Part shown: one piece after another, positions 168 through 9,273 of the stretch
Numbering within the stretch: the first letter of the stretch is position 1
How the letters are laid out: the number at the start of each line of letters is the position of its first letter
From: Limisphaerales bacterium
GTDB lineage: Bacteria; Verrucomicrobiota; Verrucomicrobiae; Limisphaerales; UBA11358
Length of the DNA: 12,756 bases
Direction of reading: 5' to 3'
Assembly (NCBI GenBank): GCA_003152145.1
Contig: PLZL01000162.1
Coordinates: forward strand, 189 to 12,944
The notes under the pieces: model-generated
Databases searched by the model: none
Told to the model about the DNA's origin: nothing
Seen by the model: only the letters and a program-made list of their open reading frames with translations
Program-made: the position numbers and the translations under genes

Positions 168-1250
168 ATGGAGTTGCCATTCATAGGCGGGGCAGCAAGG
201 AAAAAGCGGAACCAGATGATGGCGGTGGATCTGGGCACCCGCACCACGAAGGCCGTTCTCATGGAGCGGCGGGGCGAAGTGCTGGCCATGAGCCGCTACG
301 CGCTGCTGGACACTCCGATTTACGAAAAGAAATTTTCCGCCGAGCTGCTCTCCGACCATCTCCGCAACGTGGCCGAGGCGCTGGGCGGCACGACCAAATT
401 TGTGACGCTGGCCGTCGGCATTGACGACGCCATCGTGCGGCAGGTGGAGTTGCCGCAGATTCCGGTGGGCGAAATGCGGCTGGTGTTGAAGAACAACGCC
501 AAGGTCTATCTGCAACAGGATTTGCCGAATTACGCTTTTGATTGCCACATTTTTCCGCCCAAGACAGCGCCAGCGCCGGGCAAACCCGCCGACTCCGCCA
601 AGCCCGTCGGCGTGCCCAAGCTAAAAGTGCTCGTGGCCGGCGCGAAACAACAATTGCTGGATGATTTCCAAGTGGCCGTCAAAAACGCCGGACTGACGGC
701 GGATTGCATTGTGCCCGGAATCATCGGACCGATGAATGCTTTTGAAATGGCCATGCCGCAGGTATTCGCCAACGACTCCGTGGCGCTGGTGGACATCGGC
801 TTCAAACATTCCTCGATTTGCATCCTGGACCGCGGGGAGCTGGTTTTGATCCGCGTGGTCAACATCGGCGGGGACAAACTGACGGAGGGGCTGGCGGAAG
901 CCATGAACATCACCTACGCCGACGCGGAAAGCGCCAAGATGGGCATGGCGCCGGATGCCAAGTCCTCCATCGAAATGCAGGTGGGGCCGCTGGGACGGGA
1001 GTTGCGCGCGTCACTGGACTTTTTCGAGCACCAGCAGGACCGTCCCGTCTCGCAAATTTATGTCAGCGGCGCGGCGGCGAAGTCGGAGATGTTTCTGGAA
1101 ATGCTGCACGCGGAAATGATTGCCGAATGCAAGACGTGGAATCCGGCGACGTTTTTGCAGCTGGCGCTGCCGGGGCAGCAGACGGTCGAAATCGAACACG
1201 TCGGACCGCAATTGGGCGTGGCCATAGGAGCCGCGCTGGCGGCGTTTTAA
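168..1250 (+). CDS. pilM: Type IV pilus assembly protein PilM (actin-like ATPase)
   Basis: A 360-residue protein, the usual PilM size. It is a cytoplasmic FtsA/actin-fold protein that binds the N-terminus of PilN and couples the inner-membrane PilN/PilO/PilP ring to the pilus motor. Visible actin-fold motifs are the phosphate-1 loop AVDLGTRTTKAV (residues 19-30), the phosphate-2 strand VALVDIGFKHSSICIL (from residue 205) and the adenosine-loop-like YVSGAAAKSE (from 298). There is no signal peptide or membrane segment, as expected. The ATG at 168 has a good Shine-Dalgarno AAAGAGG (156-162, spacer 5); the Met pair at residues 17-18 would lie too close to the first actin strand. It is the first gene of a tight cluster: pilN follows after 12 nt. 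A separate PilM and PilN argues for a type IV pilus-type system rather than a classical T2SS, where GspL fuses both. Family assignment is confident; whether the machine builds a pilus or secretes is not decided by this gene. Confidence 0.93.
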   Translation: MELPFIGGAARKKRNQMMAVDLGTRTTKAVLMERRGEVLAMSRYALLDTPIYEKKFSAELLSDHLRNVAEALGGTTKFVTLAVGIDDAIVRQVELPQIPVGEMRLVLKNNAKVYLQQDLPNYAFDCHIFPPKTAPAPGKPADSAKPVGVPKLKVLVAGAKQQLLDDFQVAVKNAGLTADCIVPGIIGPMNAFEMAMPQVFANDSVALVDIGFKHSSICILDRGELVLIRVVNIGGDKLTEGLAEAMNITYADAESAKMGMAPDAKSSIEMQVGPLGRELRASLDFFEHQQDRPVSQIYVSGAAAKSEMFLEMLHAEMIAECKTWNPATFLQLALPGQQTVEIEHVGPQLGVAIGAALAAF

Positions 1251-1262
1251 TCAAACAAGGTT

Positions 1263-1934
1263 ATGCCAATCCACATCAACCTTCTAGCCGAAGCCCAAGC
1301 CGCCGAGGATTTGCGTCGGCGCGACCCGGTCAAGCGCGCCATCTTCATCGGCGTATCGCTGGTCGTGGTGTCCTTGATGTGGAGCGGCACGGTGGAAATC
1401 AACGCCATCCTGGCCAAGGAACGTTTCGCCGGGGTGCAAGCGTCTATCAATGCACAAACCAACGCGTATCAGCACGTGGAGTCAAACCGGAAAAGAATCG
1501 GGACAATCCAATTCAGACTGGCGGCGCTGCAAAAAATGCAGGCGGCCCGCTTCCTGCAAGGCAGCCTGCTCAACGCGCTGCAACACGCCACGGTGGACAA
1601 CGTGCAACTGACCCGGCTGCGTGTGGACCAGGCCTACTTTTTAACGGAAGGAACGGAATCGCAAACCAATGGCGACCGCGTGATTGCCGGCCGCCCGGCC
1701 ACCGTCAAGGAAAGAATCATCACGCATCTCGATGCGCGGGATTTCAGCGCCAATCCAGGCGACCAGGTCAACAAGTTCAAGGAAGTCATCGCCAAACAAG
1801 CTTACTTCCAAACCATGCTGGACAAAACCAACGGGGTGCAACTCGCCAATCCACCCTCCGCGCCGCAGACCGATGCCGGAAAGCCGTATGTGATGTTCAC
1901 GCTGGACTGTCGTTATCCGGAGGTGACCCGATGA
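1263..1934 (+). CDS. pilN: Type IV pilus inner-membrane assembly protein PilN
   Basis: A 223-residue bitopic inner-membrane protein. The N-terminus has the PilN signature INLL (residues 5-8), the short cytoplasmic stretch that docks into PilM. It is followed by a basic segment and one hydrophobic helix (about residues 26-46, IFIGVSLVVVSLMW). A helical coiled-coil-like stretch (about 50-95) and a periplasmic ferredoxin-like domain ending at residue 223 follow. PilN forms heterodimers with PilO. Start ATG 1263 lies 12 nt after the pilM stop with an AAGG (1257-1260) rather close to it; translation probably benefits from coupling to pilM. The stop overlaps the pilO start in an ATGA (1931-1934). 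The periplasmic part contains a longer polar insert (about residues 125-185) than I recall from proteobacterial PilN, which may be lineage-specific. Confidence 0.87.
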   Translation: MPIHINLLAEAQAAEDLRRRDPVKRAIFIGVSLVVVSLMWSGTVEINAILAKERFAGVQASINAQTNAYQHVESNRKRIGTIQFRLAALQKMQAARFLQGSLLNALQHATVDNVQLTRLRVDQAYFLTEGTESQTNGDRVIAGRPATVKERIITHLDARDFSANPGDQVNKFKEVIAKQAYFQTMLDKTNGVQLANPPSAPQTDAGKPYVMFTLDCRYPEVTR

Positions 1935-2512
1935 ACAAACTTCCAAAAGAGAAGCGCGATCAACTCATTCTGGTGGGCATGGGCACACTATTTCTGCTGA
2001 TCTTGATCGTCTTTGGTTTGATTCGTCCCCAGTATGGCACCATTTCAGCAGTCAATGCCCAGATTAGTGCCGCTCGCAACCATCTTCAATCCATGGAAGA
2101 CACCATCAAGAAGGCCAGCGCTGTTTCGTCCCAATTGGCAGAATTGACTTACACTCTCACCCAGACCGAGGGTGACATGGTCTCTGGTGATCCGGCTCAA
2201 TGGATTTACAATACGATTCGGAATTTCAAGGAGCATTACAAAGTGGATATTTCGGTCAACAGCCAGTTGTCAATGGGCGAGGTGGATTTGCTGCCGCATT
2301 TTCCGTATAAACAACTCAAGGTCACGGTAGGCGGCACGGCCTATTACCACGACTTGGGGAAATTCATCGCCGATTTTGAAAACACCTTTCCGCACGCGCG
2401 AATTGCCAATCTGACCCTCGAACCCGTCGGCGGCACTGGCGAGAACAATGAAAAACTGTCCTTTAGAATGGACATTATTGCCCTGGCAAATCCAACTGGA
2501 CCACAAGGTTGA
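1931..2512 (+). CDS. pilO: Type IV pilus inner-membrane assembly protein PilO
   Basis: A 193-residue protein. A short charged cytoplasmic start (KLPKEKRDQ) is followed by one strong transmembrane helix (about residues 12-31, LILVGMGTLFLLILIVFGLI), a coiled-coil-like region (about 36-75) and a periplasmic alpha/beta domain (about 85-190) with the PilO-like sequence YYHDLGKFIADFENTFPHAR. The last matches the part of PilO where the short ferredoxin-like fold dimerises with PilN. The ATG at 1931 overlaps the pilN stop by 4 nt (ATGA) and has a very good ribosome binding site GGAGGTG (1919-1925), so translation is coupled and strong. A much longer reading frame extends upstream in this phase, but that part is only the out-of-frame shadow of pilM and pilN. 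Function follows from fold and gene order: it is the stalk of the alignment complex between PilM/PilN and PilP/secretin. Confidence 0.87.
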   Translation: MNKLPKEKRDQLILVGMGTLFLLILIVFGLIRPQYGTISAVNAQISAARNHLQSMEDTIKKASAVSSQLAELTYTLTQTEGDMVSGDPAQWIYNTIRNFKEHYKVDISVNSQLSMGEVDLLPHFPYKQLKVTVGGTAYYHDLGKFIADFENTFPHARIANLTLEPVGGTGENNEKLSFRMDIIALANPTGPQG

Positions 2513-2518
2513 AACTGA

Positions 2519-2968
2519 ATGAAACCGCGCGCCCATACCCTTCAATGTCTGCTGGCAGCGTGGCTGCCCCTGACGGCTGCCGGCCCGCTGCCACTGTTAG
2601 CCGCGCCGCCGGCAGAACACGCCAAACCGGGAATCCAGCAATCAGCCTTTGTCAATCCCAACAACCCATCGGAAGGACGCGACCCGTTCTTCCCCGCTTC
2701 CACACGGCTCTATATCAGCAATCCCCAGAGCCAAATTCGCGGCCCGGCGTTGACCGACTTGACTTTGAAATCCATTTTGGGAACCGTCCCGCGTGTCTTC
2801 GCGATCATCAACAACCATACCTTTGCGCCCGGCGACGATGGGGACGTCACCACCAAATCCGGGCAGCGGCTGCACATTCATTGCGTGGACATCAACCCGG
2901 AGGCCGGCACTGCGACCGTCGAAGCCGGCGGCACGAGCGAAGTATTGCATTTATCCGGAGGGCCATGA
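2519..2968 (+). CDS. pilP: PilP-like / GspC-HR-like periplasmic secretin-docking protein
   Basis: A 149-residue exported protein lying exactly where pilP sits in pilMNOPQ clusters. The N-terminus looks like a Sec signal (about residues 1-29, hydrophobic LLAAWLPLTAAGPLPLLA). A proline-rich linker leads to the motif GRDPFFP (residues 53-59), reminiscent of the RDPF-type motif before the beta domain in PilP. A small all-beta region (about 68-149) includes LKSILGTVPRVFAIINNHTFAPGD and ends with VDINPEAGTATVEAG, the pattern of the PilP/GspC homology-region domain that contacts secretin N-domains. Many proteobacterial PilP proteins are lipoproteins; here the only early cysteine (C10) lacks a preceding hydrophobic stretch, so lipidation is unlikely. 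It starts 6 nt after the pilO stop, with AAGG (2505-2508) as a distant ribosome site. Assignment rests mainly on position and the RDPF motif, because sequence identity in this family is low. Confidence 0.72.
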   Translation: MKPRAHTLQCLLAAWLPLTAAGPLPLLAAPPAEHAKPGIQQSAFVNPNNPSEGRDPFFPASTRLYISNPQSQIRGPALTDLTLKSILGTVPRVFAIINNHTFAPGDDGDVTTKSGQRLHIHCVDINPEAGTATVEAGGTSEVLHLSGGP

Positions 2969-3124: not shown

Positions 3125-5038
3125 ATGAAAAAGACCAAAATACTTGTCGTCACCTTGCTTGCAGGATTTGTCCTGCATCAGTTGGCCTTGTGCCAAACCA
3201 GCGCCACCGATGCCAACCCGACTGCTGCGAGCGGGGCCTCCACCAACCAACCTGCGAGCAATTTGGCGGAGGGCGGCAATCAACCTGTCAGCACAACCGC
3301 CGGCAACGAACCGGTTTCCAGCGTGTCAATGGCCAATGCCTCGCCCAACATGTTGGCCAGCAATGCGATCGCCAAGGCCAATTCCCAGGCGGCCATCGGC
3401 ACCAGCGCGCCAGCCGCCGCCGCCGAGCTGCCGATTCAATTCCAGGATGTCCCGATCACCACGGCCATTGAAAGCCTGGCGCGGCTGGCGGGCATTAATT
3501 ATTTGCTCGACCCCAAAATCGGTTACGGCCAGCCGGATCAAAACGGTCAAATCAAACCCGAACCGACACTGTCCATTCGCTGGGAAAATGTCACCGCTCA
3601 ACAGGCCCTCCTGGCGCTGCTGGACAATTACAATTTGCAACTCGTCGAAAATCCGAAAACCGGGATTGCCAGAATCACGACCAAGGAACCCAACGCGCTG
3701 CCGCCACTGGTCACCCGCGTCGTCCAGCTCAAATACGCCAGCACCTCCAACATGCAGGTCTGCGTTGTGAGTCTTTTGTCGGATGATCGGCGCAGCAAAG
3801 TGGTGCCCGACGCACGCACCAGCCAGTTGGTCGTGGTTGCCACCGAATCCGAACAGTCGGCCGTGGACACGCTCATCAGCCAGCTCGACAAGCCCACCCG
3901 CCAGGTGCTGATTGAAACGCATTTGGTTGAACTTTCCAGCAACCCCAGCACGGAGAAAGGCATTAATTGGTCAGGCACGTTGCAGGCCCAGAACGTTTCC
4001 TTTGGCAATGGCATAATGAATGCGGCCGCGCTTTCACAAACAATCACCAAACTTCCGGGTGACCTAGTCACTCTTTCTCCTGCCGTGCCGGGCGTGACTA
4101 CTCCTGGCGTGACTACTCCGGCTGTAACCACTCCCAGTGGTGCTATCATAACTCCGGCCACCACCACGCCGGCGGTCACCACCCCGGGTGTTCCGGCTAT
4201 CACCGCCACGCCGGGTCAGAGCAGCGCCACCATTTTGAATACAGTCCCCGGCAGCGGCGGCCTGTCGTTAAACTCGGCCAGCGGGCTGACCCCAAATATG
4301 GGTTTCCTGTCGGCCGATGGCGCCAGGGCCGTTCTCTCGTTCCTGAATCAATCGGCGGAGGCGCAGGTGGTCTCCACCCCGCGCGTCGTGACGCTGGACA
4401 ACGAAACCGCAACCATTTCCGTCACCCGCGATTTCCCGATCATCAATGTCACGGCGTCAACAGCAGGAGTTTCATCCGGCAGCTCCCAAATCACCTACTC
4501 CAACATCGGAACCGTCCTGCAAGTGACTCCGCGAATTACCGCCAACGATTACATCTGGCTCAAGGTCATCCCAGACGTATCGAGTTATTTCGCCACTGTT
4601 AACAAAACCGTCGCTGGCACAACTTACTCAGCCGACGAATTTGACAGCCGCCACATCGAGACCCAAGTCCTTATTCCCAACAATCACACCCTGGTCATGG
4701 GCGGTCTGGTGCAGGACAATCCCAACGCTTCCTACACCAAGGTTCCCATTTTGGGCGACATTCCGATTCTTGGCTTCGCTTTTCGCAGTGAAGTTAAAAG
4801 CCTTAATAAAAGCGAGCTCATGATTTTCATCACGCCAACCATCGTTCAAGATGCGGATTTCAGGCCGTCGGACGAGAACTTCCTCGGCAACCAGCCGAGA
4901 ACCATGAAAGACCCCATGAAGATGCATACCTGGTGGGACAGCGCCCAACCCCGCGGCGACTGGAGCAATCCAATAGCACCGGACCTTAGAGCTGACAAAA
5001 CCCAAAATCCAGACCCAGGAAAGGCATCAACGCCTTGA
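3125..5038 (+). CDS. pilQ: Secretin of a type IV pilus / type II secretion-like system (PilQ/GspD family)
   Basis: A 637-residue outer-membrane secretin. The N-terminus is a Sec signal (about residues 1-24, hydrophobic VVTLLAGFVLHQLAL). Next comes a low-complexity Ala/Ser/Asn/Thr linker (about 25-101), then an STN/N0 domain (about 102-195, starting LPIQFQDVPITTAIESLA) and one N1-type ring-building domain (about 196-258, VVQLKYAS...DKPTRQVLIE). The C-terminal secretin gate domain spans about 258-590, with the hallmark VPILGDIPILGFAF and ELMIFITPTIV. The gate domain is interrupted by a Pro/Thr-rich insertion (about 322-365). No AMIN peptidoglycan-binding domain is seen, unlike typical PilQ, so GspD-like naming is possible; the gene symbol rests on the pilMNOP context. 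Start ATG 3125 has AGGAG (3113-3117, spacer 7). The C-terminal tail (about 600-637) is polar with an HTWWD segment and no clear pilotin-binding motif. Very likely a true multimeric outer-membrane channel. Confidence 0.93.
   Translation: MKKTKILVVTLLAGFVLHQLALCQTSATDANPTAASGASTNQPASNLAEGGNQPVSTTAGNEPVSSVSMANASPNMLASNAIAKANSQAAIGTSAPAAAAELPIQFQDVPITTAIESLARLAGINYLLDPKIGYGQPDQNGQIKPEPTLSIRWENVTAQQALLALLDNYNLQLVENPKTGIARITTKEPNALPPLVTRVVQLKYASTSNMQVCVVSLLSDDRRSKVVPDARTSQLVVVATESEQSAVDTLISQLDKPTRQVLIETHLVELSSNPSTEKGINWSGTLQAQNVSFGNGIMNAAALSQTITKLPGDLVTLSPAVPGVTTPGVTTPAVTTPSGAIITPATTTPAVTTPGVPAITATPGQSSATILNTVPGSGGLSLNSASGLTPNMGFLSADGARAVLSFLNQSAEAQVVSTPRVVTLDNETATISVTRDFPIINVTASTAGVSSGSSQITYSNIGTVLQVTPRITANDYIWLKVIPDVSSYFATVNKTVAGTTYSADEFDSRHIETQVLIPNNHTLVMGGLVQDNPNASYTKVPILGDIPILGFAFRSEVKSLNKSELMIFITPTIVQDADFRPSDENFLGNQPRTMKDPMKMHTWWDSAQPRGDWSNPIAPDLRADKTQNPDPGKASTP
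4088..4219 (+). repeat. Degenerate (G/A)VTTP pentapeptide tandem repeat inside the secretin
   Basis: Codons for residues 322-365 encode PGVTTPGVTTPAVTTP, then SGAIITPATTTPAVTTPG and VPAITATPGQ. At the DNA level the first 15-nt units are GGCGTGACTACTCCT and GGCGTGACTACTCCG (one change), then GCTGTAACCACTCCC, with a later copy GCGGTCACCACCCCG. The period of 15 keeps frame, so unit gain or loss would alter loop length without breaking the gene. Within the secretin fold this lies before the conserved gate core (the core resumes near residue 390, GFLSADGARAVLSFL). Confidence 0.8.
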
Positions 5039-5097: not shown

Positions 5098-8000
5098 ATG
5101 AAAAATGCAACTTTGCTGCGCGTCGGACAAGAAAGCGTTGCGGCTCGCTGGTTTGGTCTTCTGGCGATTGCCGTGTTATTGCCGCTTGCTGTCAGTCTCA
5201 AGGCGCAAACTCCAACAATAACGGAAACGACCGTCACCACTTTGGGCGGTGGCCCGCAATATTACAATCCTGGCCACAGCTTTGGTTCTTCGAATAGCGT
5301 CTATGGAACTCTCTATTCGCAATTCCACACGCCTTCTGGCCTCGCGTATGACAGTTTTCAGGGTTATCTTTATGTGGCGGACAGGGACAATAATGCGATT
5401 CGCCTGATTGATCCCTCACCCAACCCGAGCGAAATTTTCACCTTTGCTCCAGATCCCCCCTACGTCCCGGCCAATTTGATTTCCCAGCCGGTCGGGGTGG
5501 CGGTTGATGCTTTGAGCGACGTCTTCGTCCTCAACCGCGGCAATGGCGCCAATGGAACGGTGGTAGAATTTGATTATCTCGGCAATTTAATCGCCACCAA
5601 CATGACAAAGTTGACCAACGCCAGCGGCATCGCCCTGGACACCATTGGCGATATTTATGTGACTGCCAGGAACACCGTGTTCAAGATTACGCCGGCCGGC
5701 GTGAGCAATGTCGTCGTCACCATCACCAATGCCGGCACATTCCTGCAAGGCATCGTTGTGAAGAGAAGCGGGCCGAGCGCAGGATGGCTTGCCGTTTGCG
5801 ACTCCGGACGCAACGGCATTTATCTGATTGACCCGACCAGTGGCATCATCATGACCAATGCCGGTTTCAATGGTGCCGGCGATGGCACCGGCAATAGGAA
5901 CCAGGGTGTTTTGAATGCCAGCGCCCGGTTTTTCCAGCCCTCTGGCATAGCAGAGGCGGGCGATGGAAGTTTGATTGTTTCTGACTTCGGCAATCATCGC
6001 GTCAAAGTCGTGACTGTCGCCGGCCTCACCACCAATCTGTATGGTGTCGCCTCGAATTATTGGTGGACTGGCACAACGCCGACCGGCGGGACAGCGCTTA
6101 AGGGTTGGTCGGACGGGGCGGTCTGGGAGCCTGATGGCGGGCCTGGTTTTGGCAATGTCCAAGCGCGGATGCCTTTCGGCGTGGCCATTGGGCCAGACGG
6201 CACAATTTATACGACCGAGGATTATTACCACATCATCCGCGATGTCACGGGAGCCAATATCAAGCCGCCGCTCCCCCCGCCGCCGGCTGCACCAACCATT
6301 CTGACCGTCACCACAAACTTCGGGCAGGTCACTTTGACATGGTCAACGGTTCCTAACGCAACGGACTACAATGTAGAACGCGCGCCTTCCAGCGGCGGCC
6401 CTTACACGATTATTGCCACCAACATAACTGCCACAACTTTTACCGACACCTCCGTGGTGAACGGAAATACATATTACTATGTCGTTTCAGCCTCGAACAC
6501 CGGCGGTGAAAGCACCAACTCGGCTGAAGTTAGCACCACACCGCCGCTGCCCCCGGTGCCCGACCCGCAAATCGGATGGGTTACTTTTCCCCCAACGTCT
6601 ACGCCATTCCCTTACACATCGGTGTTTAATGTTGGCTCACCTTCCGGGATTACTTTCAACAATGACGTGCCTATCGTCATCATCGGAGCCGCCGGCAGCA
6701 AAACACTCTACACCTATTTGAACACGCCAACCGTTACCAACGTTCCCGACCCCACGTTTGCCTCTGTTTCGGCACCGGTCGGTTATGTGGATGGCCTTCC
6801 TTTTTCTACTGTCACCAACTTGACGGTCGCGCAGATTTTGCCGAATCTGGCCATCAAGGCCATTGGCGAACAGTCCGGCCATCCCAATAGCGCCGTTGTT
6901 TCGGCGCTGTTCCAATTCATTGTCGGCAACCCGCAGGTCAACGGCACCGATGCCGCCCAGTTCACGGTCAGCAGCATAACAACTGGGGCACAGATGTATT
7001 ATACCACGGATGGCAGCGTTCCTAGCCCGACCAATGTTAGCGCTATTGGACCGATTACAAATGGCACAATGTTGTCTCTACAGTTCCCAGCCAGCACGAA
7101 CTTGCTACAGTTCCAAATCGCAGGTTTCAAAGCGAATTATCAGCCCAGCGTCATCGTCACCAATACTTTTTACGCGAGCAATTACGTTGCGAATACCATC
7201 AGTTTCGGCTTTGCCTCGGGCGAAGCCTCCAGCGCGTTTGTGGGTGCGTCGGGCCAGACTTTTTACGCGCCGGTGACCCTGACCATGTTGCCCGGAACAC
7301 CGGTGTATAGCTTGCAATTCAATGTGTCGGTATCCAGCACGGGCGTCGGGGTGACAAATCCGGCCCCTGCTGCCGGACCATTCAATTTTCAGTCCATGCT
7401 CATGTTGCCCGGAACAGAAACAAATGTTCCCGGCACGGTATATTTTGCGATTCCCCCGTGGATGTTTGCCGCCAATGAGACTACCAGCCTGCCGCCGGAA
7501 GATTATGTGACCAACAGCGCCGGCCAGGTTTTCGTCAATCTGCTGGTCAGCAATGGGAACCAGCTTGCCGTTGGCTGGCTTGAACGTTACGGCCGCACCA
7601 ACCTTTACAACACGACAGTGCAGGACCTGATTCAATACTCTCTCGCCCACGACGACTTGTTCCCCAACAGCCAACAACCCAACGGTGTCATCGCTGGAGG
7701 CTATAGTTTCAAAATCTCGCCCGGCGCCACCAACGGCCAGCAATATCAAATTCAAGTCGGCCAGGCATCGGCGACGGATGACGGCATTGGCACGCCGGGT
7801 TCGGCGGTGATCATTGTCGCCCCGAGCGGAACCAACAGCGCATCCCTAGGCGCAGGCACGCTCAATGCCATCAAAAATGTCACAATAGGAAGCATCCCAT
7901 ACCTTGTGGGCGACGTTTATCCATTCCGCTGGTTCAATGCGGGCGATTTTGGGTCGAGCAACCTGACAAAGTATGGAAGCGCAGATGCGGAACAGGTGTT

Positions 8001-9273
8001 CCAGTCGGCGGTTTATTCTTGGAACATGCCTCCGCCCGGCAGCGATTTCTTTGACGCCATGGATTCCGCCGGCGGGATTGGCTATGTAGATTCAGATCCG
8101 ACCAGTCAATTTTACGGATATTATACCAACGCCTACATCACCAACACGGCCGCATTGCTTGGCGGAGACTTCACCAACATCAACCAAATGGCCTTTGGCG
8201 ACGGCCAATTGGATGTGGCGGACGTTTATGTGACTTTTCTCCGTTCGGAGTTCACCAACAATCTCCTGTGGTTCGAGCGGGTCTGGACGAATGGCGTCCG
8301 CGTGGCGACAGCCAACTACGCCCCCGCCATTGAACCGGCTCTGCAAAAACAGTTATCGTCAGGCGGCGGCAAAGTTCAACCAGCATTCAATTCGAGCTTA
8401 AGCCCGGATTCCATCACCAACACGCCGTTCGTCAATTTCACTGCCGGCGATTATCAGGCCACCCCTGGCCAGCAGATTTCAATCCCCGTAACCGCCTCGG
8501 TCTTTGGCGCCTATCCGTTGAGTGTTTTGATGCTGAACATCAGCGTCGTGCCCTTGGACGGCTCGCCGGCTTTGACAACCCCCGTTTCATTTACCCTCAA
8601 TTCGCCGTTCAATAATCTGAACAATTACAATCCCGGCGCGGCCGGACTGCAAGACAGCTTTGGAAATGGCAATTATTCCGTGGCCTTGCTGCCCAAGCAA
8701 TTTCCGATTCCCCAAAACCTTGGCGTCACCGGCAACGCCGTCATCGGCACGCTGACCATCACCATTCCGGCGAACGCCACGAGCTTGTCCGCTTACGCGG
8801 TTCATTTTGACCACGCCTCGGCCTCGCCCAGCGGCTTGATCTCCTTCCCCAAACACACGCTGACGGGTTTGATTACTCTGTCCAGCCGCACCAATTCCAC
8901 CTATAACGACGGCATCTCGGATTCCTGGCGACTGCAGTATTTCGGCACCATTTACAATCTGCTCTCGGTCTCCAATGCCTGCCCGTCGGGCGACGGCATC
9001 AACAACTGGGGAAAATATGTTGCCGGGGTTGACCCCAACACGCCCAACGACTTTCCGAGCTTGAATCCCAATACACCGCCTCCTTCCGGCGCGGCCATGT
9101 CCATTTATTGGCCGACGGTCAGCGGCAAGCAATATGCAATCTTGAGTTCCGCCAGCCTGTTCCCCGGCAACTGGATCACCAACGCCATCCTCACCGGCAC
9201 CGGCACCGACATGGAATTTGACGACAATTCCACCGGCACGGTGAAGTTCTACCGCGTGCTGATTCTCCCGTGA
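5098..9273 (+). CDS. Giant exported multidomain protein: NHL propeller, FN3, chitobiase-like, cohesin/dockerin-like, Ca-loop C-terminus
   Basis: A 1391-residue predicted surface or extracellular protein. The N-terminus is a Sec signal (about residues 1-37, hydrophobic FGLLAIAVLLPLAVSLKA followed by Q). Residues about 70-385 hold six NHL-type blades (PSGLAYDSFQGYLYVADRDN, QPVGVAVDALSDVFVLNRGN, ASGIALDTIGDIYV, LQGIVVKRS, PSGIAEAGDGSLIVSDFGNH, PFGVAIGPDGTIYT). A proline linker leads to an FN3 domain (about 396-482). A chitobiase C-terminal-like beta domain (about 613-695, MYYTTDGSVPSPTN) and a cohesin-like beta region (about 700-898) follow. Next come dockerin-like Ca-loop segments (about 948-974 and 1033-1052, FGDGQLDVADVYVTFLR) and a second cohesin-like region (about 1118-1261). 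The C-terminal module has Asp-rich loops (DGISDSW at 1271, GDGINNW at 1298) and a closing beta domain. The start chosen is ATG 5098 with AGG at 5088-5090; an in-frame TTG at 5035 would bury the signal peptide. No catalytic site was recognised. Being 59 nt after the secretin suggests a co-expressed substrate, adhesin or glycan-binding partner. Exact function is unknown; cohesin/dockerin labels are by pattern only. Confidence 0.85.
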   Translation: MKNATLLRVGQESVAARWFGLLAIAVLLPLAVSLKAQTPTITETTVTTLGGGPQYYNPGHSFGSSNSVYGTLYSQFHTPSGLAYDSFQGYLYVADRDNNAIRLIDPSPNPSEIFTFAPDPPYVPANLISQPVGVAVDALSDVFVLNRGNGANGTVVEFDYLGNLIATNMTKLTNASGIALDTIGDIYVTARNTVFKITPAGVSNVVVTITNAGTFLQGIVVKRSGPSAGWLAVCDSGRNGIYLIDPTSGIIMTNAGFNGAGDGTGNRNQGVLNASARFFQPSGIAEAGDGSLIVSDFGNHRVKVVTVAGLTTNLYGVASNYWWTGTTPTGGTALKGWSDGAVWEPDGGPGFGNVQARMPFGVAIGPDGTIYTTEDYYHIIRDVTGANIKPPLPPPPAAPTILTVTTNFGQVTLTWSTVPNATDYNVERAPSSGGPYTIIATNITATTFTDTSVVNGNTYYYVVSASNTGGESTNSAEVSTTPPLPPVPDPQIGWVTFPPTSTPFPYTSVFNVGSPSGITFNNDVPIVIIGAAGSKTLYTYLNTPTVTNVPDPTFASVSAPVGYVDGLPFSTVTNLTVAQILPNLAIKAIGEQSGHPNSAVVSALFQFIVGNPQVNGTDAAQFTVSSITTGAQMYYTTDGSVPSPTNVSAIGPITNGTMLSLQFPASTNLLQFQIAGFKANYQPSVIVTNTFYASNYVANTISFGFASGEASSAFVGASGQTFYAPVTLTMLPGTPVYSLQFNVSVSSTGVGVTNPAPAAGPFNFQSMLMLPGTETNVPGTVYFAIPPWMFAANETTSLPPEDYVTNSAGQVFVNLLVSNGNQLAVGWLERYGRTNLYNTTVQDLIQYSLAHDDLFPNSQQPNGVIAGGYSFKISPGATNGQQYQIQVGQASATDDGIGTPGSAVIIVAPSGTNSASLGAGTLNAIKNVTIGSIPYLVGDVYPFRWFNAGDFGSSNLTKYGSADAEQVFQSAVYSWNMPPPGSDFFDAMDSAGGIGYVDSDPTSQFYGYYTNAYITNTAALLGGDFTNINQMAFGDGQLDVADVYVTFLRSEFTNNLLWFERVWTNGVRVATANYAPAIEPALQKQLSSGGGKVQPAFNSSLSPDSITNTPFVNFTAGDYQATPGQQISIPVTASVFGAYPLSVLMLNISVVPLDGSPALTTPVSFTLNSPFNNLNNYNPGAAGLQDSFGNGNYSVALLPKQFPIPQNLGVTGNAVIGTLTITIPANATSLSAYAVHFDHASASPSGLISFPKHTLTGLITLSSRTNSTYNDGISDSWRLQYFGTIYNLLSVSNACPSGDGINNWGKYVAGVDPNTPNDFPSLNPNTPPPSGAAMSIYWPTVSGKQYAILSSASLFPGNWITNAILTGTGTDMEFDDNSTGTVKFYRVLILP

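Follow-up and report, generated by a model that had tools for sequence, protein, structure and literature searches.

A giant propeller protein with predicted cohesin folds encoded directly behind the secretin of a pilMNOP-like cluster in Limisphaerales

PilY1, a protein with a beta-propeller, is the tip and priming protein of type IVa pili, and we know of no PilY1 that carries cohesins. Here we compare PilY1 and other described systems with a locus on a 12,756-nucleotide stretch of Limisphaerales DNA (hereafter, the window; GenBank assembly GCA_003152145.1, contig PLZL01000162.1, positions 189 to 12,944), in which a pilM-N-O-P-secretin cluster is followed by the gene for a putative secreted protein of 1391 residues (hereafter, the giant; window positions 5098..9273, + strand), recognized from its open reading frame (ORF) and its homologs. 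Its setting and architecture suggest that the giant belongs to a pilus-like machine, either as a part at the surface or as cargo. Our preferred reading, which draws on analogy and which we hold to be plausible though short of probable, is a PilY1-like role for a Sec-exported giant beside a PilM-N-O-P-secretin complex, elaborated with cohesin modules. A literature search returned no description of this cluster, most subscription journals lying outside its reach.

According to published accounts, PilY1 is calcium-dependent in Myxococcus (PMC8833165) and PilY1 genes are frequently found beside minor pilins (PMC13190605). The secreted protein TcpF is exported by a type IV pilus (T4P) machine whose operon includes its gene, through binding of TcpF to a minor pilin (PMC9565799). 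The giant resembles PilY1 in being a putative secreted propeller protein tied to a T4P-like machine, and differs from it in that its gene lies behind the secretin, whereas PilY1 genes frequently accompany minor pilins. Similarly, the giant is encoded in its machine's cluster, making TcpF a precedent for operon-encoded T4P export, but TcpF binds a minor pilin and the window cluster yielded no pilin gene. The cohesin folds of the giant liken it to cellulosomal and non-cellulosomal cohesin-dockerin proteins; in contrast with those systems, its Asp loops are non-canonical and dockerins were not found outside giants in eight genomes, bar two frames of about 10,000 codons. Finally, the NCBIfam family Amuc_1099_fam, from the Akkermansia Amuc_1098-1102 pilus-like cluster, matches 29 of the 34 members of the giant C-terminal alignment (A5; best 9.6e-8), the window's fragment not being among them. 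This match, however, covers only model positions 125-156 of 321, with 21 bits against a cut-off of 50 (in one paralog), and the cut-offs of the Amuc models are far above the scores of PilM and secretin from the window.

Linkage of the giant gene to the secretin across the order

Homologs of the giant were abundant (1168 of 7994 scored candidates at E<=1e-3), and the fuller of two relatives in named genomes, from the Verrucomicrobia subdivision 3 metagenome-assembled genome Umea_bin-09539 (L002), matches the window giant over residues 21-1391, with 53% identity in the best segment. We searched 196 genomes of the order of L002 with the C-terminal half of the giant, obtaining matches under 1e-40 in 60 of them (our own count). 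Loci from 40 of the 60 were fetched, 18 being left out, and the addition of the window, L001 and L002 yielded 43 giant-bearing loci. The secretin is in view in 34 of these, and in all 34 the longest ORF of the first same-strand giant starts between -122 and +45 nucleotides from the secretin stop. Eight loci start at a contig edge in a giant or within 140 nucleotides of one (L001, L045, L047, L049, L050, L056, L057 and L066), and in L062, which is possibly misassembled, pilM, pilN and pilO are present and neither a secretin nor pilP was called. The 34 loci carry one (9 loci), two (14) or three giants (11), and the additional giants have the same module set, with profiles matching 34 or 35 of 35.

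The pilM gene of the cluster, defined by a match to profile A2 at E<=1e-45, is present in 109 of the 196 genomes, namely in 53 of 60 giant-bearing and 56 of 136 giant-less ones (Fisher p 3.4e-10, uncorrected for kinship). The seven giant-bearing genomes without it may reflect assembly gaps. Phylum-wide draws recovered the cluster pilM in 5 of 387 genomes, namely G001, G044 and three distant ones, near 1e-60. The first-pass annotation had raised the question of whether the gene stays beside the secretin in relatives, and both the invariant linkage and the pilM association indicate that it does.

The same cluster also occurs without a giant. Of the 56 giant-less pilM loci we fetched 40, and a secretin was called in 36 of them. 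In 27 of the 36 the sequence continues for 3 kb or more past the secretin and contains no ORF scoring above 100 bits against the giant profiles, the nearest to an exception being L149, whose opposite-strand ORF of 87 bits lies about 11 kb farther along. Two clean empty sites, L119 and L113, present the secretin and the GBBH-like, DtxR-like, MetA-like and Nramp genes in window order, with the giant missing. The four loci with no secretin called are two short contigs together with L112 and L117; these last two hold pilM-N-O-P with no secretin ORF called behind, perhaps through a frameshift or a real loss. In another giant-less locus (L134), pilP and the secretin are separated by a 1073-residue ORF with a weak score (19 bits) for the FYRV domain described below.

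On a PilM tree of 63 rows, obtained by a quick search with support from the Shimodaira-Hasegawa-like approximate likelihood ratio test (SH-aLRT) only, giant presence changes 11 times. One row labelled as giant-less, L132 (G099), stems from a contig that is too short to show one, and giant-like pieces are found on other contigs of that genome. With 11 changes, giant presence as a single clade was rejected; the shuffled mean was 18.9 and none of 500 shuffles was as low. Taken together, the 27 giant-less loci, the empty sites and the tree changes indicate that the cluster persists where the giant is absent, and that the giant comes and goes at one site. The existence of the same cluster without a giant, in those loci and at the two clean sites, speaks against the dedicated surface-scaffold secretion system put forward in the first-pass annotation.

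Architecture of the giant and its predicted cohesin folds

The giant, all of whose features lie on the + strand, opens with a signal peptide read by eye (residues 1-36, 5098..5205, with putative cleavage before Q37). An NHL beta-propeller follows (residues 58-384, 5269..6249; Pfam NHL 5.9e-13, TRIM71 NHL chains in the PDB 1.7e-13), in which six blades were counted by eye, and then an FN3 domain (residues 393-489, 6274..6564; PDB 3mpc, an Fn3-like protein, 2.7e-19) and a chitobiase-C / FN3-associated segment (residues 618-690, 6949..7167; PF13290 1.2e-4, and PF13287 1.2e-3, below its cut-off). Overall, the observation made in the first-pass annotation is confirmed in part, and its interpretation is likewise supported in part.

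Structure prediction and fold comparison support a cohesin fold in each of the two regions that the first-pass annotation had called cohesin-like. The first is a cohesin fold with insertions (residues about 694-934, 7177..7899) and the second spans residues 1108-1264 (8419..8889), with CaCohA2 and several type I cohesins among the best rows of its fold comparison. At the sequence level the window fragment does not reach the cut-off of Pfam PF00963 (16.9 versus 24.1 bits); two sets of sequences gave matches to this family at E<=1, 9 of 34 (best 0.0014) in one and 8 of 35 (best 0.0029) in the other, and its precomputed annotation appears on one (P0085) of 120 homologs listed.

Between the cohesin folds lies a dockerin-like module with a double Asp loop (residues 933-1062, 7894..8283), conserved in 34 aligned sequences. 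In the predicted models helices follow both Asp loops, the module having been modelled only within larger pieces and no fold row covering it; the rows of the fold comparison were all taken by cohesins and are uninformative on dockerin absence. With nothing matching in PDB sequences or Pfam, its identification as a known dockerin by sequence was rejected, and dockerin is likewise not among the 25 of 34 Pfam families listed for the paralogs. Of the cohesin-like and dockerin-like parts seen in the first-pass annotation, the former are supported by prediction; the latter has no sequence match in either database. The chain ends with a TSP3-like stretch and a C-terminal beta domain with FYRV near its end (8893..9270). 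TSP3_bac is matched at E<=1 in 26 of 34 aligned sequences, the window's own not being one of them, and in 121 of 121 proteins this C-terminal domain comes last, ending no more than 8 residues before the C-terminus.

The first-pass annotation had also envisaged docking of other dockerin proteins on the giant, and a cellulosome-like scaffold displaying dockerin-bearing enzymes on the surface would have the predicted cohesin folds in its favour. Yet Pfam Dockerin_1 was found in only two of eight genomes (G100:C1:1739553-1739714 and G013:C44:113127-113288), in each case inside one frame that stays open for about 10,000 codons, and a profile of the giant's own Asp-loop module matched no locus besides giants in the eight, although divergent dockerins could escape both profiles. 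A partner set of dockerin proteins in these genomes was accordingly rejected, and we deem such a scaffold highly improbable. Across 387 genomes drawn phylum-wide, the module occurs in two, G001 and G044. Its restriction to giants in the eight genomes suggests that the partners would be found among the giants themselves. Carried further, one to three giants could polymerise by cohesin-dockerin-like contacts into a calcium-locked fibre that replaces the pilin filament in a machine whose cluster has no pilin gene, an elaboration that we consider quite unlikely.

The surrounding gene cluster and its possible motor

The order of the genes upstream of the giant, all on the + strand, is that of the T4P PilMNOPQ alignment complex, pilN and pilP being assigned solely from their position and their homologs at other loci. 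A short PilM (168..1250; Pfam PilM_2 4.4e-22), which in the genomes searched is a second PilM alongside a long one, is followed by a pilN-like inner-membrane gene (1263..1934), supported by same-place homologs in other loci and without a match in the Pfam scan, a pilO/GspM-like gene (1937..2512; Pfam T2SSM 3.2e-6, NCBIfam GspM_XpsM 9e-7) and a pilP-like gene (2519..2968) with weak homologs in the loci, matched by neither Pfam nor NCBIfam. The secretin (3125..5038; Pfam Secretin 1.4e-45) comprises STN-like and Secretin_N domains and the secretin domain, the last two separated by a Thr/Pro-rich repeat stretch (TPGVTTPAVTTP) at about 4080-4230. On the 3' side of the giant, GBBH-like and DtxR-like genes on the - strand precede a MetA-like outer-membrane gene and an Nramp gene on the + strand. 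Promoter-like sites showed no excess in our scan (5 versus 5.7 in shuffles); terminator-like sites numbered 24 versus 16.7, and the + strand of the secretin-giant interval has none. In G100, a third PilM-type gene (G100:C1:4116723-4117799) was seen near a third secretin (4110680).

Genes of the T2SSF family lie off the cluster in all eight genomes, with at least four per genome by our own count; none is listed on the cluster contig in five of the eight, and in G013 the distance is about 39 kb. A T2SSF gene in G188, about 5 kb past the giant, was considered as the cluster motor and taken as unrelated, being on the opposite strand among PCMT, thioredoxin, aminotransferase and Nramp genes.

These data bear on the possibility that pilMNOP and the secretin form a type II secretion system (T2SS)-like platform and gate, borrowing a motor and pseudopilins from elsewhere, and that the giant is its released substrate. 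The window secretin scores higher against GspD (218 bits) than against PilQ (189 bits), the pilO-like gene matches T2SSM/GspM, T2SSF matches exist elsewhere in each of the eight genomes, and the cluster persists without a giant, as a general exporter would. Both secretin scores, however, fall below the curated cut-offs (351 bits for GspD and 284 for PilQ), and substrates of a general exporter need not adjoin the secretin, yet the giant does so in every locus with a secretin in view. We regard this alternative as a serious but rather doubtful one.

The FYRV domain, a second pil cluster and the role of the giant

The FYRV domain is not confined to giants. Among the best 22 or so scored candidates per genome, it was matched in 183 of the 196 genomes, including no fewer than 74 in which the cluster pilM is missing, and it closes many other ORFs of the order, with 37 and 22 matches in two genomes (loci L080-L109). 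Of these 59 matches, 30 were examined and 23 end at most 8 residues from the stop, a position that resembles that of a sorting domain. As the cluster pilM is present in only 109 of the 196 genomes, FYRV as an export tag specific to this machine was rejected. Both the breadth of the domain irrespective of the cluster pilM and its terminal position would be expected if the giant were merely co-transcribed with the pil cluster and exported and anchored by another route common to FYRV-ending proteins. Such a route would hardly explain the order-wide linkage to one secretin, nor presence and absence at exactly one site in near neighbours, and we consider it unlikely on balance.

Two FYRV matches near other secretins, in G100 and G044, prompted a survey of a second pil cluster, with a long PilM and Amuc-like genes, in 20 hand-picked and therefore non-random loci (L150-L169) from 19 genomes. 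In L150, the only locus tested, the Amuc_1101, Amuc_1100 and Amuc_1098 families score 486, 73 and 328 bits, all under the equivalog cut-off. Where the secretin is in view (19 loci), it is followed after 11-1153 nucleotides by the start of a same-strand FYRV-type protein of about 640 residues (556-725) in 16, or in 14 of 17 once the two prompting loci are set aside. The three misses are L159, L160 and L162, the contig of L162 ending at this point, and L165 is cut before a secretin could be called. The protein lies within 210 nucleotides of the secretin in 5 of the 16 loci, and its C-terminal scores are weak (15-26 bits) in 3 of the 16. It has a signal-like N-terminus and FN3-like and TSP3-like parts, and eleven aligned members show repeated WQDN and WxSxxQDG blades; Pfam TSP3_bac and fn3 were matched in 5 and 4 of 8 sequences, respectively, all under cut-off.

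The PilY1-like reading rests on the linkage of the giant to the secretin in 34 of 34 loci, the pilM association, the empty sites, the predicted cohesin folds, the Asp-loop module restricted to giants and the recurrence at the second cluster. In particular, propeller proteins encoded close to the pil-type secretins of two separate clusters are reminiscent of PilY1 in role, and the giant would be a cohesin-bearing version. Several observations weigh against it. The PilY1 family, which we take to be PF05567 (Neisseria_PilC/PilY1 C-terminal propeller), is not among the Pfam matches up to E 1 in the window. Among the window genes scanned with Pfam there is no pilin, motor ATPase or PilC/GspF, pilins and ATPases not having been searched for genome-wide, and in G100, a genome assembled in one contig, about 110 kb separates the cluster from the closest T2SSF gene. 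The cluster is kept through 11 changes in giant presence, the FYRV domain is widespread where the cluster pilM is missing, and the Asp loops are degenerate, non-canonical and unmatched by any dockerin in Pfam or PDB sequences. The second-cluster protein is propeller-like by our own interpretation of its repeats, no Pfam family naming a propeller in the eight sequences scanned. Moreover, it stands about 1 kb from the secretin in 11 of 16 loci, leaving room for an intervening gene, which in L150 encodes a 5'-3' exonuclease with no evident tie to pili. This gene, together with comparable gaps at ten other loci, led us to lower the PilY1-like reading and to raise that of a giant exported and anchored by another route.

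Under the PilY1-like reading, the giant would be exported by Sec and would act with the trans-envelope PilM-N-O-P-secretin complex encoded upstream of it. Its propeller head may sit at the secretin, or the giant may exit through it, for adhesion or display outside the cell. The first cohesin, Asp-loop and second cohesin modules would probably lock copies or paralogs, of which there are one to three per locus, together through calcium, so that self-association would take place among giants.

Similar neighbourhoods with zero, one, two or three giants offer a genetic handle on the role of a secretin-linked surface protein. Propeller-like proteins with a common FYRV C-terminus occur behind two different pil-type secretins, and in the giant cohesin folds of the cellulosome type are brought into a pilus-machine cluster, in an order known here mostly from uncultured genomes.

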